Below are positions 1 through 10,054 of a DNA stretch of 64,000 nt, in pieces (positions within the stretch are counted from its first letter, which is position 1; every line of letters starts with the position of its first letter). The translations under genes were made by a program, and so were the position numbers. The notes below the pieces were generated by a model. It had not been told where the DNA came from. It did not search any database and saw nothing but the letters and a program-made list of their open reading frames with translations. The DNA is from Pseudomonadota bacterium (lineage in GTDB: Bacteria; Bdellovibrionota; UBA1018; CAIMNF01), in contig JAIXWV010000006.1 of NCBI GenBank assembly GCA_027491115.1, positions 1 to 64,000 of the forward strand, read 5' to 3'.

Positions 1-2852
1 GCGATGAATCCGATCATCGAGGTTGCGGTGAAGTACGCTCCAAGCATGGCGTGCCCGGGAAGAATTCCGATCAAGCTGATCGGAATCGGCGCCATGATCA
101 CCAAGGGAACCAGGTAGCTCCGGAACCAGCCGAGGACCAACACATAGATGAGAACGATCACCACCGCAAAGGCACCCCCGAGGTCGCGGAAAACCTCATA
201 AGTGATGAACCACTCCCCGTCCCACTTGATGACGGGGCTCTCCGTATCCCACGGCACTTCGGCGGTTTGGGTCGGGTACTTGATTTTCGGAGCGAGCTTG
301 AGCATCCCGTAAACAGGAGCCTCCTCTGATCCAGAAAGCTCGCTCATCACATACGATACCGGTTTTAGGTTCTTCCTATAAAGTACAGGATTCGAAACCA
401 ACTCGGGCGCACGCACCAAAGATGCGGCTTGGGCTGAGCCCGACTCGAAAGAGGGAATACTTTGGCCTTGGAAGGGTCGATCACTCGAGCGTACCTCCTG
501 CTTTACTGAAAGATCGATGCTGATTTCCTCCGGATGAGTCGACTCATTCAACAAGCCGACCCGGGACTCGGAGAAGACATAAGAACCGAGTCCCGCCATC
601 GAAGCTGCACTGGCGCCGAGGAGACCGCCTTGCGTCCGGTCAAATGCATAAACTTTGCGCTGTTTTAGCTCACGATTCGTTGTATCGAGATCGACTACAC
701 TCGACTCGGAACGGAAGATCTCTTCGAGCTCACGGGTAACCTGGCGTCTTGACTCGAGAGTCGGACCGTAAACCTCAGCCAACATGGTCGCCATGACCGG
801 TGGGCCGGGAGGAATCTCGAGAACCTTGGTGACGGCCTGGTTTTTGAGTCCAAATTCGATGACAGCCGGACGGAGACTTTCGATGATCTGGTGACTTGAA
901 AGTTTCCGCTCATTCTTCCCGCTCAAAACCACCTGCAAATCCACCTGGCTCTCACTCTGTCTGAGATAGGCATGCTTCACCATTCCAGAGAAGGAAAAAG
1001 GTGCGGACTCACCTGCGAAGATCTGGACTTTTTTCACTTCGGGATGACCAAGAAGACTACGCGCAAGCTCCTGGGACAACTCGATACTCTTCCTGATCGG
1101 AGTTTCGGGTGGGAAGTCCACCAGGACCTGGAACTCGTTCTTGTTGTCGAACGGGAGCATCTTGACCTTCACCGCCTTGAACATCAGCAGCGAAAACGAT
1201 GCGAGCAATAAAAGAACGGTCAAGCCTCCGAAGCGAAGGGAGCGGCCCCGACTACCGAGTAACTTCTCCATGAAACTCCGGTAAAGGCGGTCCAGACGAC
1301 TCTCTCGGTGAATATCGGGTTTCGTACCGTGGGCTTCTTCCTTCAGGATCCGGATCGACGCCCAAGGGGTAACGATGAACGCCACCAAAAGCGAAAAGAT
1401 CATCGCAATGCTGGCACCGACCGGGATGGGCTTCATGTATGGCCCCATCATCCCTTGGACGAAAGCCATCGGTAGAATGGCAGCGATGACTGTAAAGGTC
1501 GCAAGGATGGTAGGATTTCCCACCTCGGCAACGGCGTTCAGGGTAGCTTTGAAAATGCCCAGCCCGGGATTGTCGTGGAGATGCCGCTCGATATTTTCCA
1601 CAACGACAATCGCATCGTCCACGAGGATCCCGATCGAAAAAATCAGTGCGAACAGGGTGATCCGGTTCAGGGTATAGCCTAGGAAATAATAGATCGCGAG
1701 AGTCAGCGCGAGGGTCACCGGGATGGCGATAGCCACGACAATGGAGGCACGAAGCCCCATGATGAGTGCGATGAGTGCGGCGACTGAAAGAGTGGCGATC
1801 AAAAGGTGTTCGATCAACTCGATGGACTTTTCATTCGCGGTCGATCCGTAATTGCGAACTTCCGTCATCCGGACCGACTCAGGGAGCTGATTCGAGAATC
1901 GGCCGGCACGATTGAGCAACTGACGAGCCAGCTCGACCACGTTGGTTCCTTTTCTTTTTGCAAAAACGACCGACACCGCCGCCTCGGGGGCTCCTTCCCG
2001 CCCCTTTTCGAAAAAATATGAAGCGCGTGTCAGTTCTTCCGGTCCGTCTGTGATCCGGGCCACATCCTGCAATCGGATCACCCGTCCGCCACGTTGTCCG
2101 ATCGGAATCCGCTCGAGGTCGGCAACCGATGTGATTCGTCCCCCCACCTCCACCTGGAAATCCCGGTCCTGCCCCCAGCTCTTACCCACGGGTAAGTAGG
2201 CGTCATTTTCTTCGAGCGACTTGGCAACGCTGAGTAACGAGACTCCCAATCTGGAAAGTTTGTCAGGATCCACCACCACCCGTATGGCGCGTTTCTGCCC
2301 TCCCTTGAGTTCCACACGTGACAGATCCGGCGTAGCCGAGAGTTCCCTCGCCAACGGCGCAACCAAGGAACGCAGCTCGAATGACGAAAGCGAACCAGAA
2401 CTGAAGGTCAAGGTGAGGAAAGGAACATCATCGATCGAGAACGACTTCACAATGGCCTGTCCGGCATGTTTGGGAAGCTCGGGTCTGAGCTTCATGATCC
2501 GGTCATGGACCTTAACGAGGCTGGGTTCCATCGGTTCGCCCACTTTGAATCGGGCGGTGATCAATGCACCATGAGCCTGGGATGCGGAGTAGACATACTC
2601 GACGCCATCCAATCCCCACACAGCCCGTTCGACGGGTTCGGTGATCTTTTTTTCAACCTCCGCCGCTTCGAGTCCCGGAACGGGGATTTGGATGTCGATC
2701 ATCGGAACCGAGATTTGCGGCTCTTCTTCTTTGGGGGTCAGTACCACGGCTGTGATTCCGATGAGGATCGAGAATACCGCGATGACCGGAGTGAGTTTGG
2801 AATGTGCGAAAGTCCGTGCCAAACGGCCGGCGAAACCGATATCTGGATTCAT
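1..2852 (-). CDS. RND efflux transporter permease (HAE1/AcrB-like), 3' end outside window
   Basis: Inner-membrane proton-driven pump subunit of a tripartite efflux system. Translating the minus strand from the ATG at 2852 gives about 950 codons without a stop, running off the left edge; full-length relatives are about 1030-1050 residues, so only the last part is missing. Visible family marks are the N-terminal membrane segment followed by TPKEEEPQI, a GLEAAEVEKKITEPVE stretch (pore domain start), and the proton-relay motif VDDAIVVVEN near residue 410 in the fourth membrane helix. The start codon overlaps the stop of the outer-membrane factor gene as ATGA, so the two are translationally coupled. 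Substrate cannot be told; the EEEPQ type is common in multidrug-like pumps of delta-proteobacteria and relatives. No membrane fusion protein lies upstream. Confidence 0.93.
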   Translation of the reverse strand, partial: MNPDIGFAGRLARTFAHSKLTPVIAVFSILIGITAVVLTPKEEEPQISVPMIDIQIPVPGLEAAEVEKKITEPVERAVWGLDGVEYVYSASQAHGALITARFKVGEPMEPSLVKVHDRIMKLRPELPKHAGQAIVKSFSIDDVPFLTLTFSSGSLSSFELRSLVAPLARELSATPDLSRVELKGGQKRAIRVVVDPDKLSRLGVSLLSVAKSLEENDAYLPVGKSWGQDRDFQVEVGGRITSVADLERIPIGQRGGRVIRLQDVARITDGPEELTRASYFFEKGREGAPEAAVSVVFAKRKGTNVVELARQLLNRAGRFSNQLPESVRMTEVRNYGSTANEKSIELIEHLLIATLSVAALIALIMGLRASIVVAIAIPVTLALTLAIYYFLGYTLNRITLFALIFSIGILVDDAIVVVENIERHLHDNPGLGIFKATLNAVAEVGNPTILATFTVIAAILPMAFVQGMMGPYMKPIPVGASIAMIFSLLVAFIVTPWASIRILKEEAHGTKPDIHRESRLDRLYRSFMEKLLGSRGRSLRFGGLTVLLLLASFSLLMFKAVKVKMLPFDNKNEFQVLVDFPPETPIRKSIELSQELARSLLGHPEVKKVQIFAGESAPFSFSGMVKHAYLRQSESQVDLQVVLSGKNERKLSSHQIIESLRPAVIEFGLKNQAVTKVLEIPPGPPVMATMLAEVYGPTLESRRQVTRELEEIFRSESSVVDLDTTNRELKQRKVYAFDRTQGGLLGASAASMAGLGSYVFSESRVGLLNESTHPEEISIDLSVKQEVRSSDRPFQGQSIPSFESGSAQAASLVRAPELVSNPVLYRKNLKPVSYVMSELSGSEEAPVYGMLKLAPKIKYPTQTAEVPWDTESPVIKWDGEWFITYEVFRDLGGAFAVVIVLIYVLVLGWFRSYLVPLVIMAPIPISLIGILPGHAMLGAYFTATSMIGFI

Positions 2853-4165
2853 GGATTTGCTTCCTTTCCTGAAGCGAGACGGGCCAGCGCTGCCCGGGCC
2901 TGGATGTGTTGACGCTGGATTTCCTGGTGATTCAGGATCAGGTCAAGCCTGCGATTGTAGATCTCGGCCAGTTGGAGTGCGCCGATTGATCCGGATTGGA
3001 AGAGGCGGGAAGCCACCTCGACCTGCTCACTCATTAGCACCAAGCTCTCATTGAGACGCTTCTCGTTATTTTGAATCGCATTCAGGCTCCTGAATCCGGC
3101 CTCACGCCCTGACTGGAGCGAAGCGCGCGCCCCTTCGAGGCGGGCCTGAGCCGCATCCTGCTCGAGCTTTTTCTCGGCTAGTGATCCAAGATCCCTCGGA
3201 TCGAACAGATTCCAACGAAGGTACAACCCACCCGCATAGGCGGCGCCCGTATTCCGTGCACCCGATACCATTCCACCCTCGCCGAACACTCCAATCTGAG
3301 GAAGTGCGCGGGCACGATCCAACCCTATGGCAGCCCGTGAAACCTCCAGACGCTTCTCTGCGATGGTGACCGGTAAGGATTCGGTGGAATTCAAACGTTC
3401 CTCAGGAAGGGCAACAGCCAGAAAAACCGCAACAGGCTCCGGTCTGACTTCAAATTCAGGCGGGATCGAACTCGCAAGAGAGCTGATCCTCGATCGTGCA
3501 CCCTCGCCTTCCACCCAGAGCTGTTCGCTCACCGCTTGTGCCCGATTCAACAGACTTTTCAAGCCGAGGAGACCCGAGTACCCGACTGGGTTCGATTTTG
3601 ATCCGACCGAGTACTTCGCCAACACCTGCCGGACCTGGGACTCTAGCCCCATGACAACTTGGCGCGTGGATTGGGCATGAAGGATGGTCGCGTAAGAGCT
3701 GGCTGCATCCACATACGTTTCCCATTCGGTTCGATCTTTAGTCAGCTCCATCATATCGGCCATGGAATGCTGCAGGTTCCGGTGAGCCACACCGGCCCCA
3801 CCTTCGAACAGTGACCACTGCATCCCCAGGGATGTGGAGAGAAAATTAGCCGAGCCGGGCTGATTCAATGCAGAAGGCGCAAAGTCCGTTGTTTCCAACG
3901 CCCTTTGGCCCAACCGCGAAAAAAAGATCTGGGCTGGATCATTGGTATGGATCCCACGTCCAGTGAGAGACAGGTTCGGAATCCAATGCCTGGAGCTCCG
4001 GCTTGCGGCGGATTCCGAAGCGCGCCACTCGGCATCACTGGCCCGGACCTCGGGTGACTCGACCTTCACGCGTTTCCAGATCTCGCTGAATTCGAGACGC
4101 TCGGTGGCGAACACCGGAACCGGAAGAAGCGCTGACGCCAGAACCAGGAGCTGAATCGTCTTCAT
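2849..4165 (-). CDS. TolC-like outer membrane efflux protein
   Basis: Outer-membrane channel of the tripartite efflux system. 438 residues, as usual for the family. A signal peptide is visible (MKTIQLLVLASALLPVPVFA), followed by the two-fold repeated helical barrel pattern: EIWKRVKVESPEVRASDAEW near the N-terminus and matching segments in the second half (PVTIAEKRLEVSRAAIGLDRA, EIYNRRLDLILNHQEIQRQH). Its ATG overlaps the stop of the ArsR-family gene (ATGA at 4162-4165) and its stop overlaps the start of the RND gene (ATGA at 2849-2852), so regulator, outer-membrane factor and pump form one tightly coupled operon. Confidence 0.9.
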   Translation of the reverse strand: MKTIQLLVLASALLPVPVFATERLEFSEIWKRVKVESPEVRASDAEWRASESAASRSSRHWIPNLSLTGRGIHTNDPAQIFFSRLGQRALETTDFAPSALNQPGSANFLSTSLGMQWSLFEGGAGVAHRNLQHSMADMMELTKDRTEWETYVDAASSYATILHAQSTRQVVMGLESQVRQVLAKYSVGSKSNPVGYSGLLGLKSLLNRAQAVSEQLWVEGEGARSRISSLASSIPPEFEVRPEPVAVFLAVALPEERLNSTESLPVTIAEKRLEVSRAAIGLDRARALPQIGVFGEGGMVSGARNTGAAYAGGLYLRWNLFDPRDLGSLAEKKLEQDAAQARLEGARASLQSGREAGFRSLNAIQNNEKRLNESLVLMSEQVEVASRLFQSGSIGALQLAEIYNRRLDLILNHQEIQRQHIQARAALARLASGKEANP

Positions 4166-4449
4166 TTGCAGTAAATCTCCTTGATGGACTTCAAAAGCTT
4201 TTTGGTGCGGGAATCGGCAATCCGGTAAAACACATGGGTCCCCTCTTTCCGCGACTCCAACAGTCCTTCACCCCGCATCCGGATCAAAAACTGGGACATG
4301 GCGGATTGGGCGATTCCACAAAACTCGGTCAACTCATTCACGGAGCTTTCCCCATCAAGAACCCGGCACAGGACCTTCAAGCGAACCGGGTGGGACAAGG
4401 ACTTGAGCACCGCACTGACTTCGTCACATTTTTCAATGATTTCTTGCAT
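4162..4449 (-). CDS. ArsR/SmtB-family transcriptional regulator
   Basis: Small winged-helix repressor, 95 residues from the start chosen here. SLSHPVRLKVLCRVLDGE and VNELTEFCGIAQSAMSQFL are typical ArsR helices including the recognition helix, followed by the wing (GLLESRKEGTHVFYRI). A longer reading frame begins at 4473, but the ATG at 4449 has a good ribosome site (AGGAAGG, five bases away) and lies just downstream of the predicted -10, so the longer form would start upstream of the transcript. Three cysteines are present (near residues 8, 24 and 41); whether they bind metal or sense sulfur or oxidation cannot be read from sequence. First gene of the efflux operon and probably self-regulating through the TAATATTA boxes in front of it. 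Confidence 0.9.
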   Translation of the reverse strand: MQEIIEKCDEVSAVLKSLSHPVRLKVLCRVLDGESSVNELTEFCGIAQSAMSQFLIRMRGEGLLESRKEGTHVFYRIADSRTKKLLKSIKEIYCK

Positions 4450-4471
4450 GAACACCTTCCTCAATGCATTC

Positions 4472-4512
4472 ATAATATTATTTTTATGTAATATTAGTCA
4501 AGCGTAATATTA
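4472..4512 (-). promoter_or_regulatory. Promoter with three TAATATTA operator boxes at 16-bp spacing
   Basis: Three identical 8-bp palindromes TAATATTA lie at 4473-4480, 4489-4496 and 4505-4512, exactly 16 bp apart. On the minus strand a -35 (TTGACT, 4496-4501) and a -10 (TATTAT, 4472-4477) with an 18-bp spacer fall inside the array: one box covers the -10, one sits in the spacer against the -35, one lies upstream. A small winged-helix repressor gene follows directly, so this looks like its own operator. The divergent lipoprotein gene at 4579 could be affected too. The repeat is seen directly; the binding protein is inferred. Confidence 0.7.
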
Positions 4513-4578: not shown

Positions 4579-6606
4579 ATGGTGGGTGCTTTCAGGGGTT
4601 CAATGGTGGTCGTTTTGTTGGGGCTGGTAACCGGTCTTGGGGGTTGCACCAAGCTAAAATCTGTTGTCCGAGGCTCCCCGACTGGCGCCAGTACCACTCC
4701 CTCCACCTCCTCCACACCCCCCAGCCCACCCGAGCCCACTTTGGTCTTGAGTCGATTGAGCTCCACAGCTCCCACCTCCATGGTCTCGGGCAGATCGTAC
4801 ATTGAGATCATTGAGCTCTCGAATCCGAACGCTCCGGGCATTCCAATTGAGATCGGTTCCATCAGGAACAATCCGAGCCTGGCAACCGACGGCGCTGAGA
4901 TTGACTGGAGCGCATGCAACTCGATACAAATCGCGGGCGCGACCACTTGCAAGATTTACATTCGCTACACGAGCCCCGGTGTCGGCACTTTGGATGTGAC
5001 ACCCGAGTTCGAATACTCTTTCACTCAATCCGGAACTAGACAGGACAAGACTCTCCCGCACCCTATGAGAATGCGCTGGGTCGGCACTGCCGACGGTTCC
5101 ACCGCAGTTCTCGACTATCAGAGCCCCTCTTTGTTTTTCACCAAAGGTGGCTTCCCGCATTCCTGGACCCCGGTGGTTCGTGGAGCCACAGCTGGAGACT
5201 CCCTCCGCTTTGCACTGACAGACTTCAGGGGGCTGCCATCAGGAATGCATTTTGACCCCGCTACCGGAAAAGTTTCAGGCGCCCACCCCACGGGTGACGG
5301 ATCGGGCTCGATCGAGGTCTGCCTAGTCAAAAACAATATCCTCACCCAAGCTTGTTCGATCATCACCCTGGTCGGAATCGCAGAAGAAGTGATTTCGCCC
5401 GACCCTTCACCTTGCACAGGGTTGCCGGGAAATGGAAGCTCGTCAGATCCCTACCAATTGAGCTCCCCGGAGCAATTCGACTCCTGCCTAAGGAGCCACA
5501 GCGCCCAAGCATTTGTGCTGGTGCGTGACATCGACTTTCAGGGATATGCCATGTCTCCGATTGAACAGTTTAGCGGATCCCTAGATGGCCAAGGACACAC
5601 TCTCTTGAACTACTCATTCTTCGAGACCCCAACCACGGGGCCGGTTGGCTTTTTCAGAACTGTGAACAGCGGTAGCGTGATTAAAGACCTGAGCCTGAGC
5701 GGATTTTCTGTGGATTCTGACTGTGGATACTATGCTGGGGTACTTGCAGGTAGAGTCAGGAACGCTCTCATTTCGAGCATTAGCATTCAAAACAGCAGGA
5801 TTGCGGGATGCTATGGAATCGGTGGCTTGACCGGTCTATATGAAGGATTCACAACTGGGAAATACCTCGGGGGTGCAATCGAACAAATTACAATTTCGGA
5901 CATCCAACTCCACGATTACGATATAGACTGGAGTGCCGCCGGTGGAGCCATCGGCATCATGTCATCGGACATGCGCATTCGATTGTCACACCTGAAAGTG
6001 GAAAGTCTGCGCACACGCAACCTCGGTAATGCTGTCGGGGGAGTGATCGGAGCATCATGGGTCGCTCTTTCACTGGCCACAGACCGACCCAATTCAATTA
6101 TTTGGCTCGATGGTGCCACCTCATCGGGAGTGATAGTCGGTCATGAGTTCGTCGGGGGAATCATGGGCGTCGTTACCGGTCTGGACATCGTCTCGAATGT
6201 CGGGACAACGGCGACCCTCGGTTCGGATTACTCAATGTCCGGATTGTCAGGAAGAATCGGTGGGCTGTTCGGTACCATTGGCGGCAATCCAACCAGCACC
6301 GCGCAAGAACGTCCGAAATTAAGTCAGAGCTACTTCGCGGGTTCCTTCATTCCTGCTGCATCAGGACTCACTCCCCGAGTCGGATCTTTGGTGGGTGACA
6401 CCACCTATCGAAACTGGGGAGGAATGCTCTACTTAACTGACGTTTTCAAACTTTCAACAATTTCGGTACCCGACCTCTTCAGTGGAGGGCGAAGAATATC
6501 AGGAAACACCTTGCCACTTTCGGATAATCAATTCAGGGATCCTGCCAACTTCCCACTGTGGCCGGGAGCGTGGAATGTCCAGAGAGGCTCGTATCCGAGT
6601 CAATAA
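4579..6606 (+). CDS. Surface lipoprotein with GLUG-like beta-helix region (paralog 1)
   Basis: 675 residues. The N-terminus ends in a lipobox (GLGGC, Cys at about 23), so it should be lipid-anchored, followed by a Ser/Thr/Pro-rich linker. Next come a domain resembling choice-of-anchor or abnormal-spindle-like beta-sandwiches, a putative Ig segment with the LPSGMHFDPATGKVSG signature, then a region starting GNGSSSDPYQLSSPEQFDSC that looks like GLUG-type beta-helix proteins (DIDFQGY, FSGSLDGQGHTLLNYSF, many short glycine-ended turns). It is clearly paralogous to the protein at 8057-10054 along its whole length. Another ATG at 4603 has a closer AGGGG site, but the first ATG keeps an arginine in the signal n-region. 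Function unknown; adhesion or surface binding is a guess. Confidence 0.8.
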   Translation: MVGAFRGSMVVVLLGLVTGLGGCTKLKSVVRGSPTGASTTPSTSSTPPSPPEPTLVLSRLSSTAPTSMVSGRSYIEIIELSNPNAPGIPIEIGSIRNNPSLATDGAEIDWSACNSIQIAGATTCKIYIRYTSPGVGTLDVTPEFEYSFTQSGTRQDKTLPHPMRMRWVGTADGSTAVLDYQSPSLFFTKGGFPHSWTPVVRGATAGDSLRFALTDFRGLPSGMHFDPATGKVSGAHPTGDGSGSIEVCLVKNNILTQACSIITLVGIAEEVISPDPSPCTGLPGNGSSSDPYQLSSPEQFDSCLRSHSAQAFVLVRDIDFQGYAMSPIEQFSGSLDGQGHTLLNYSFFETPTTGPVGFFRTVNSGSVIKDLSLSGFSVDSDCGYYAGVLAGRVRNALISSISIQNSRIAGCYGIGGLTGLYEGFTTGKYLGGAIEQITISDIQLHDYDIDWSAAGGAIGIMSSDMRIRLSHLKVESLRTRNLGNAVGGVIGASWVALSLATDRPNSIIWLDGATSSGVIVGHEFVGGIMGVVTGLDIVSNVGTTATLGSDYSMSGLSGRIGGLFGTIGGNPTSTAQERPKLSQSYFAGSFIPAASGLTPRVGSLVGDTTYRNWGGMLYLTDVFKLSTISVPDLFSGGRRISGNTLPLSDNQFRDPANFPLWPGAWNVQRGSYPSQ

Positions 6607-8056: not shown

Positions 8057-10054
8057 TTGTTGAGTTTGAAATTCGGGGTTTCCTCATCATGGGTCCTTCA
8101 AACGGTCCTGCTCCTGATCATTTCGGGATGTGGCAGGATCCGCATGGCCGATTTTGGACTCGATGGTGCATCCAGCTCCCCGACTGAATACACCAATCGA
8201 CCTTCAGCCCCTCCCGCGGGCCCCGGCCTGAACATCGTACGCCTGTCCCAAAACCCACCCTCCTCGATCGTGACCGGTGTGCAATTCACCGAAGAGCTCG
8301 AAATTTCAAATCCATCGCAAAGCATCCCCGTGACCATTACTGGAATTTCCGATAACCCCATAGCACAAGGTGCTGAGATGGATGTGCAAAACTGCCTGGG
8401 TGTGACCCTGATCGGGGCCACCACCTGTCGAGCCTTCATCCGCTATCAGGACGTCTCGGCAGGAGATGTGTTGGCCACTCCTTCATTCAACTATGACTTC
8501 ATCGAAAACGGAGTGACCTACAACGATTCTGCCGCTCATACGGTGCAAATGTCATGGGACACTCCGGCCACTGGCTTGACTCTATCGTATCCCAGCCAGT
8601 CTTTTTTTCTGACGGATCGCTCCTTTCCGCATTCGATGTCCCCGACCTACTCCTACACGGACCCCTACGGCTCGATCGATCTGAAGTTCGTCCCGACGGA
8701 TGTCAACGCGGTTCCAAGCGGTGTCATCATTGATCCTTCAACCGGCAAGGTGTCCGGAAAAATGGGCGCAGGAACGGCCTCCATCCGGGTGTGCTTAATG
8801 AAGAACGGTACCTTGACCCAAGTCTGTTCGAACGTTGCACTACGCGGGGTGGATGAGCTCAACATCCTGGCAGGAGCTTCGCCGTGTTCAGGCATGGGTG
8901 TGGCAGGAGACGGCAGCAGCACCTCCCCTTACCAGATCTCAACTGCCACCCAATTCAAAGACTGCATTCGATTGGAGCCGTCCAAAGCTTATATCCTGAC
9001 CGCCAACATTGACTTCACCGCATTTTCGATGGATCCGATTCCGACGTTTTCCGGATCATTTGACGGCCAGAACTTCACTCTTTCAAACTATTCCTACAAT
9101 GACGCACTCCCGGCCACTGGTTTGGGGCTTTTCCGGATTCTCAGTGCGGGAAGCGTGGTCAAGAACCTCGTCCTCGACAATTTCACACTTTCGGCCCCAT
9201 CAAAAGACTCCGTGGCCGTACTTGCAGGGGCGGCACACAACAGTTTGATTTCCAATATCACTGTCCTCAACAGTACGATCACCGCCGCATATGGCTTTGG
9301 AGGCCTGATCGGACTTTACACCGCTACCGCTGCAGACCTCTACGGCGGGGGAGCCGTGGATCTGATCAAAGTCTCGAATACCCAGTTACGCGATTCCTTT
9401 GCAGCTTGGAGCCTGGCAGGCGGAGCCATCGGAGTCGTATCCACCGACACGCTCATCAAGTTCAGCAGGATTTCTGTAACCGGCTTGTCGAGTAACAATA
9501 TTGGAAATACCCTGGGCGGTGTGATCGGAGCCTCCCAAATCGGGCATGACGTGGTGGGAGGAAAGCCTGCGGCCTCCATCTGGCTCGATGGAGCGGTTTC
9601 GACCGGAACCTTTTCTGGAGCCGACTTCGTCGGAGGAGTGATCGGATTCGCCACTGCCGGGGATCAGTTCACCAACATCGGTTCAGTGGCCACCGTGGGG
9701 TCTCCCTCGAGCGGAGGAGGACTGATCGGCGCCATGGGAGGAAATCCGGCCGCACCTACTCTGAACATCGCCTTGTCGAATTCATATTTTGCCGGAAGTG
9801 TGAGTGGAATTGCGAATCGAGGGCGGATTTTGGGTGATGCTCAATATCGGTCCTGGGCGGGCGCAGTTCCCATGACAGGCGTTTATGTGCTGTCCAGCAT
9901 CACCGGTGGTGACCAATGCGCGGGCAATGCCTCCACCATCACAGGCACCGCACCGGTTCCCTATTCGATCGCACAAATTCAGAATCCCAACTTGCTTTAT
10001 TTTTGGGGATTCCCGTGGACTTTTGCTCCAAGCACTTATCCCAGAATCTGGTGA
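8057..10054 (+). CDS. Surface lipoprotein with GLUG-like beta-helix region (paralog 2)
   Basis: 665 residues with a lipobox (LLIISGC). No in-frame ATG lies between the upstream stop at 8042 and the signal sequence, so a TTG start is required; 8057 is the first, others follow at once. Domain order matches the paralog at 4579-6606: anchor-type beta-sandwich, Ig-like segment (VPSGVIIDPSTGKVSG), then GNG/GDG-SS-PYQ start of a GLUG-like region (DIDF/NIDFTAF, FSGSFDGQNFTLSNYS, GLGLFRILSAGSVVKNLVL). Similarity extends to the C-terminus including the single-aromatic end. Cysteines are conserved between the two copies. Probably arose by duplication around the barrel gene between them. Role unknown. 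Confidence 0.8.
   Translation: MLSLKFGVSSSWVLQTVLLLIISGCGRIRMADFGLDGASSSPTEYTNRPSAPPAGPGLNIVRLSQNPPSSIVTGVQFTEELEISNPSQSIPVTITGISDNPIAQGAEMDVQNCLGVTLIGATTCRAFIRYQDVSAGDVLATPSFNYDFIENGVTYNDSAAHTVQMSWDTPATGLTLSYPSQSFFLTDRSFPHSMSPTYSYTDPYGSIDLKFVPTDVNAVPSGVIIDPSTGKVSGKMGAGTASIRVCLMKNGTLTQVCSNVALRGVDELNILAGASPCSGMGVAGDGSSTSPYQISTATQFKDCIRLEPSKAYILTANIDFTAFSMDPIPTFSGSFDGQNFTLSNYSYNDALPATGLGLFRILSAGSVVKNLVLDNFTLSAPSKDSVAVLAGAAHNSLISNITVLNSTITAAYGFGGLIGLYTATAADLYGGGAVDLIKVSNTQLRDSFAAWSLAGGAIGVVSTDTLIKFSRISVTGLSSNNIGNTLGGVIGASQIGHDVVGGKPAASIWLDGAVSTGTFSGADFVGGVIGFATAGDQFTNIGSVATVGSPSSGGGLIGAMGGNPAAPTLNIALSNSYFAGSVSGIANRGRILGDAQYRSWAGAVPMTGVYVLSSITGGDQCAGNASTITGTAPVPYSIAQIQNPNLLYFWGFPWTFAPSTYPRIW

Follow-up and report, generated by a model that had tools for sequence, protein, structure and literature searches.

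The promoter region at positions 4472 to 4512 of the 64-kb window (the whole stretch of DNA that was analysed) raises the question of which protein would read three identical palindromes set at equal steps, and how its dimers would be arranged on them. The palindrome TAATATTA occurred at 4473..4480 (box 1), 4489..4496 (box 2) and 4505..4512 (box 3) and at no other place in the window, where dinucleotide shuffles gave a mean of 0.02 copies. The positions and the 16-bp step described in the first-pass annotation were exact, and three copies are far above chance. At 10.5 bp per turn, the step corresponds to 1.52 turns or 188 degrees. When the whole genome (2,547,609 bases) was searched for 16-bp-spaced pairs, eight copies of TAATATTA were found and the only pairs were those of the 4473-4512 array. 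The remaining single copies (on C2, C31 and C43) had no partner at 16 bp and lay in coding or unrelated A+T-rich sequence.

The boxes covered a promoter on the minus strand, TTGACT-N18-TATTAT, and the earlier placement of them over the -10, the -35/spacer and the upstream flank was confirmed. Box 1 is promoter-proximal and overlies the -10 hexamer (TATTAT, 4472..4477), box 2 lies at the spacer/-35 edge, and box 3 stands 5' of the -35 hexamer (TTGACT, 4496..4501), which is separated from the -10 by an 18-bp spacer. The TTGAC-N18-TATnAT layout was kept in three near relatives. The adjoining ArsR-family gene and efflux operon were also present as annotated, all on the minus strand. The regulator of 95 aa is encoded at 4162..4449, with a Shine-Dalgarno-like AGGAAGG at 4455..4461, six bases 5' of the ATG at 4449. 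A transcript starting about 7 bases past the -10 would have a short leader carrying AGGAAGG before this ATG, and for this reason the repressor gene was taken as 4162-4449; an ATG at 4473 is an unlikely start, falling within the -10 box. The regulator gene is followed by those for an outer-membrane efflux protein of the OEP/TolC type (OMF, 438 aa, 2849..4165) and an RND permease of the AcrB/AcrD/AcrF family (3..2852), which is cut by the contig start at 950 aa and measures about 1056 aa in relatives. Because successive genes overlap by 4 bp (repressor-OMF and OMF-RND), the three were considered one operon. The permease resembled multidrug RND proteins of the AcrB/CmeB type more closely than the metal pumps CusA/CzcA; the 950-aa fragment scored 169.5 bits against a cut-off of 701 for TIGR00914 (CusA/CzcA) and reached none of the RND subfamily cut-offs. 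No adaptor (membrane-fusion) gene was found in the complete OMF-RND operons of relatives (L020, L021, L022 and L029), in which the RND gene comes last, an uncommon arrangement for a tripartite pump. One adaptor had its match in the genome on a different contig, behind an ABC-permease-type gene. The plus-strand gene at 4579 was rejected as the conserved target of the array, since close orthologues keep the array beside different genes. This gene (4579-6606) and another at 8057-10054 encode a pair of similar, apparently paralogous proteins, each large (about 670 aa), predicted to be exported and beginning like a lipoprotein.

The conserved cysteines expected of an ArsR-family sensor were found, but the first-pass annotation had not recognised that the protein, by its alignments, belongs to the sulfur-sensing SqrR/BigR/YgaV-type dithiol subfamily. 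Its nearest solved relatives were BigR, YgaV, SqrR and HlyU, with end-to-end alignment, and phmmer over residues 3-94 gave 5e-18 for BigR, 7e-17 for YgaV and 2e-16 for SqrR. With 79.9 bits against a cut-off of 155 it remained below the NCBIfam BigR equivalog NF040642, so that it should be a member of the subfamily and not BigR itself. The persulfide-sensing pair, one cysteine in helix alpha2 and one in the C-terminal helix (C31 and C98 of YgaV; PMC9774250), is matched in the alignment by Cys28 and Cys94, and both of these were kept in 16/16 orthologues with at least 59% identity. There were two extra cysteines, Cys44 (13/16) and Cys8, which was invariant in the 16 closest orthologues though it lies outside the known sensing pair. 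The BigR/SqrR/YgaV group consists of persulfide-responsive repressors, in which a polysulfide bridge joins the sensing cysteines (PMC10509353; PMC12423496). Because the repressor has its Cys28 and Cys94 at the positions of this pair, its signal is quite likely sulfide or persulfide and not a metal. One could propose instead a sensor of metal or arsenite, with the array driving a metal efflux switch, for the protein passed the general ArsR/SmtB metalloregulator model (72.4 against a cut-off of 55) and an efflux pump lies downstream. However, arsenite-sensing ArsR proteins carry an ELCVCDLC-type binding motif in the DNA-binding helix, and this motif was absent from the repressor, whose matching stretch is VNELTEFCGIAQS with the single Cys44. 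Furthermore, the best relatives are non-metal dithiol sensors with the same cysteine pair, the pump is not nearest to the metal pumps, and the same array precedes persulfide-dioxygenase-like (PDO-like) and rhodanese genes (see below). Sensing of metal or arsenite was rejected on homology, cysteine positions and gene context, and we consider it highly improbable.

About a dozen related bacteria keep an evenly spaced array in front of this regulator. We gathered 38 promoters of regulator homologues by protein search only, so the sample was unbiased towards the motif, and compared them with 200 dinucleotide shuffles. ATATTA-N8-TAATAT, allowing at most one mismatch, was present in 25 of the 38 (shuffle mean 0.12) and its 16-bp tandem in 11 (shuffle mean 0); the operator was absent from 13. 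Distances between perfect boxes were 16 (n=9), 32 (n=2), 30 (n=1) and 46 (n=1). Four boxes were found in G001, G006 and G127, while three close orthologues within the tandem-bearing group (G002, G009 and G011) had a single operator only. In more distant homologues (the second copy in G001, and G015; L060 and L019), two operators were offset by 8 bp (274 degrees). One ortholog promoter (L028:4900-5000) carried three copies of another box, ATATATAAT, with the 16-bp period kept. On the regulator tree the tandem was clustered, with 3 changes against a mean of 9.9 after shuffling of the labels, on a tree whose deep forks had low support. A contig titled Nitrosovibrio (L033) carried a regulator and operon identical to those of the Bdellovibrionota genome G006; its title or bin is probably wrong.

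The array would lose its meaning as an operator if it were common before unrelated genes, as the first-pass annotation had pointed out, but searches of the order and the phylum did not find this. In 55 genomes of the order, exact 16-bp pairs occurred at nine loci, eight of them at the regulator promoter and the other in G014. Across the phylum, the three-box pattern (at most one mismatch) gave 17 loci in 15 of 369 genomes, and the reversed control pattern had one match. Thirteen of these loci adjoin a regulator homologue, two being shared with a divergent sulfur-transport or PDO-like/rhodanese gene and one with a divergent OMF gene; one further locus precedes a rhodanese/PDO-like pair. Three-box loci elsewhere were limited to G088, G213 and G296, with one mismatch each, and a role as a common promoter feature was rejected. 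It is true that A+T-rich -10 regions yield TAAT-like strings, and the array might be a chance or structural feature of such a promoter. However, shuffles of the window gave 0.02 copies of the box, the genome has no other array of exact boxes, and the array accompanies the regulator in different species and families, so that the probability of its being no operator is exceedingly small.

The array tracks the orthologues of the regulator (11/38 against 0 in shuffles) and overlies the regulator's own promoter, and the sensor cysteines are conserved. For these reasons the proposal that the ArsR-family neighbour is the binder was supported, the protein standing as a candidate, and the array is very probably its operator. 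How a dimer would sit on the boxes is suggested by characterised relatives. The recognition site deduced for SqrR is ATTC-N8-GAAT, and the YgaV footprint over the -35/-10 and start of ygaVP includes a similar site (PMC9774250). In HlyU, half sites by themselves were not bound and both halves of a 17-bp palindrome were needed (PMC4330345). Two boxes at 16 bp contain ATTA-N8-TAAT, which has the spacing and symmetry of the SqrR/YgaV site with ATTA in place of ATTC. Because of this shared N8 geometry, one dimer probably spans two neighbouring boxes, and three boxes would then make two overlapping ATATTA-N8-TAATAT operators with a common middle box. The predicted operators are O1 (4475..4494, 20 bp) and O2 (4491..4510), which overlaps O1 by 4 bp; boxes 1 and 3 would be their outer half-sites and box 2 the half-site of both. 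The palindromic form of the boxes would also be understood, since an interior box must serve dimers on both sides. In terminal boxes, the inward ends were kept in 39/44 cases and the outward ends in 31/44 (one-sided p=0.03), while under a looser criterion, applied first, the counts were 43/54 and 33/54 (two-sided p=0.057); these p-values depend on the criterion and are optimistic, because the compared rows are related sequences. The better-kept inward ends thus point weakly to a dimer spanning two boxes.

The first-pass annotation had assigned one dimer to each TAATATTA palindrome, with three dimers on alternating faces. That arrangement would suit the perfect palindromy of the 8-bp boxes and their unvarying 16-bp step, and the interior boxes were in fact the best conserved (67/76 end positions). 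However, winged-helix ArsR dimers touch two half-sites about one turn apart, the SqrR/YgaV site and the two required halves in HlyU are spaced operators, and several orthologues have a single ATATTA-N8-TAATAT. In addition, no consistent symmetry that would fit a box-centred dimer was found flanking the 8-bp boxes. The assignment of one dimer per palindrome was therefore disfavoured and seems improbable. The idea of opposite faces survived in a changed form, because the centres of the two-box dimers (4484.5 and 4500.5) likewise lie 16 bp or 1.5 turns apart; what fell was the placing of dimers on single boxes. With an offset of 188 degrees, overlapping dimers can avoid each other, and simultaneous or cooperative occupancy of O1 and O2 from opposite faces has about an even chance of being right, which makes it the least certain step of our reading. 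It is also possible, though we think it rather unlikely, that the overlapping operators are alternative, mutually exclusive sites which raise the local number of sites without any cooperation. With 4 bp and the middle box in common, O1 and O2 may not have room for two dimers at once, and the single-operator promoters of relatives show that one suffices. Nevertheless, every tandem steps by 16 bp, up to four boxes, where mutual exclusion would allow other steps, and dimers offset by 16 bp would lie on opposite faces and could tolerate an overlap. The title of Mandal et al. (2007), as cited in PMC10451225, moreover names cooperative binding for the related SoxR.

The best further match in the same genome was a degenerate three-box array with 16-bp steps (C39:92752-92787), consisting of two operators with one mismatch each; only 8 bp separate its end from the ATG of a PDO-like gene. 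The product of this gene has a metallo-beta-lactamase fold and resembles the dioxygenase half of Blh, a BigR target; a rhodanese gene with an intact CRSGNR loop comes next. An array before the PDO-like gene was also present in G007 and G010. The outer boxes at this gene deviate on the inward side, which speaks against a dimer over two boxes. The PDO-like gene on C39 (L067:1565-2244, minus strand) is split between two frames, by either decay or an assembly error, and in G007 it is an open frame of 258 aa. In other relatives, the regulator neighbours SQR-like, rhodanese, OsmC, DUF302, PDO-like and sulfur-transport genes, which are the known company of persulfide-sensing repressors. The array also suggests that the RND efflux pump may be part of a sulfide/persulfide response.

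In the mechanism that we infer, the reduced repressor would bind as a dimer on two boxes, with both operators perhaps occupied, and would cover the -35, the spacer and the -10. The bound repressor would block its own gene together with those of the OMF and the RND pump. Rising sulfide would generate persulfides, a bridge would form between Cys28 and Cys94, and the repressor would be released. The pump operon would then be made together with the PDO-like/rhodanese pair, which stands under the weaker three-box copy. As a whole, this explanation, with two-box dimers, two overlapping operators and a persulfide-released switch, seems to us likely. A bolder and doubtful extension is that the repressor polymerises along the DNA in these Bdellovibrionota, with dimers spaced by 16 bp on alternating faces, common half-sites and promoters graded by the number of boxes (2, 3 or 4). 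If it were true, the switch would respond to persulfide steeply and in a tunable way, and the RND pump under it would export a reactive-sulfur or sulfur-conjugated compound. The array yields a defined and conserved operator grammar (ATATTA-N8-TAATAT, 16-bp tandem step, two to four boxes) for repressors of the persulfide type in a phylum that has been little studied, and with such a grammar a sequence search can list the regulon. Promoters that naturally hold one, two or three operators make the cooperativity of these repressors directly measurable.

We regard the array as a conserved operator of a known kind of switch, whose layout, a half-site-sharing 16-bp tandem of one to three operators, we did not find described; a literature search gave no paper on comparable ArsR operators in overlapping tandem, though this argues only weakly for novelty. 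The closest known systems are SqrR of Rhodobacter capsulatus and YgaV of E. coli, which share the homologous winged-helix protein, the same cysteine pair and an N8-spaced palindromic operator over the -35/-10 of the regulator's own promoter in an autoregulated operon. However, the half-site here is ATTA (ATATTA) and not ATTC, the predicted operators are fused in a 16-bp tandem with common half-sites, and the expected target is an OMF-RND pump instead of SQR or YgaP. BigR of Xylella, Agrobacterium and Acinetobacter was the best PDB match of the repressor and controls Blh, a sulfur transferase/dioxygenase, just as the array on C39 stands before PDO-like and rhodanese genes. It differs in that our repressor falls under the BigR equivalog cut-off and has an RND efflux operon as its predicted first-gene target. 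SoxR and sHdrR, ArsR-type regulators of sulfur oxidisers, belong to the same subfamily and have the same cysteine pair, whereas they regulate sox and shdr genes. DtxR/IdeR- or QacR-like operators hold two dimers on opposite or offset faces without a direct clash. The likeness to our overlapping operators, which may be able to hold two dimers as well, is a resemblance only, as those proteins are unrelated and their offsets are different.
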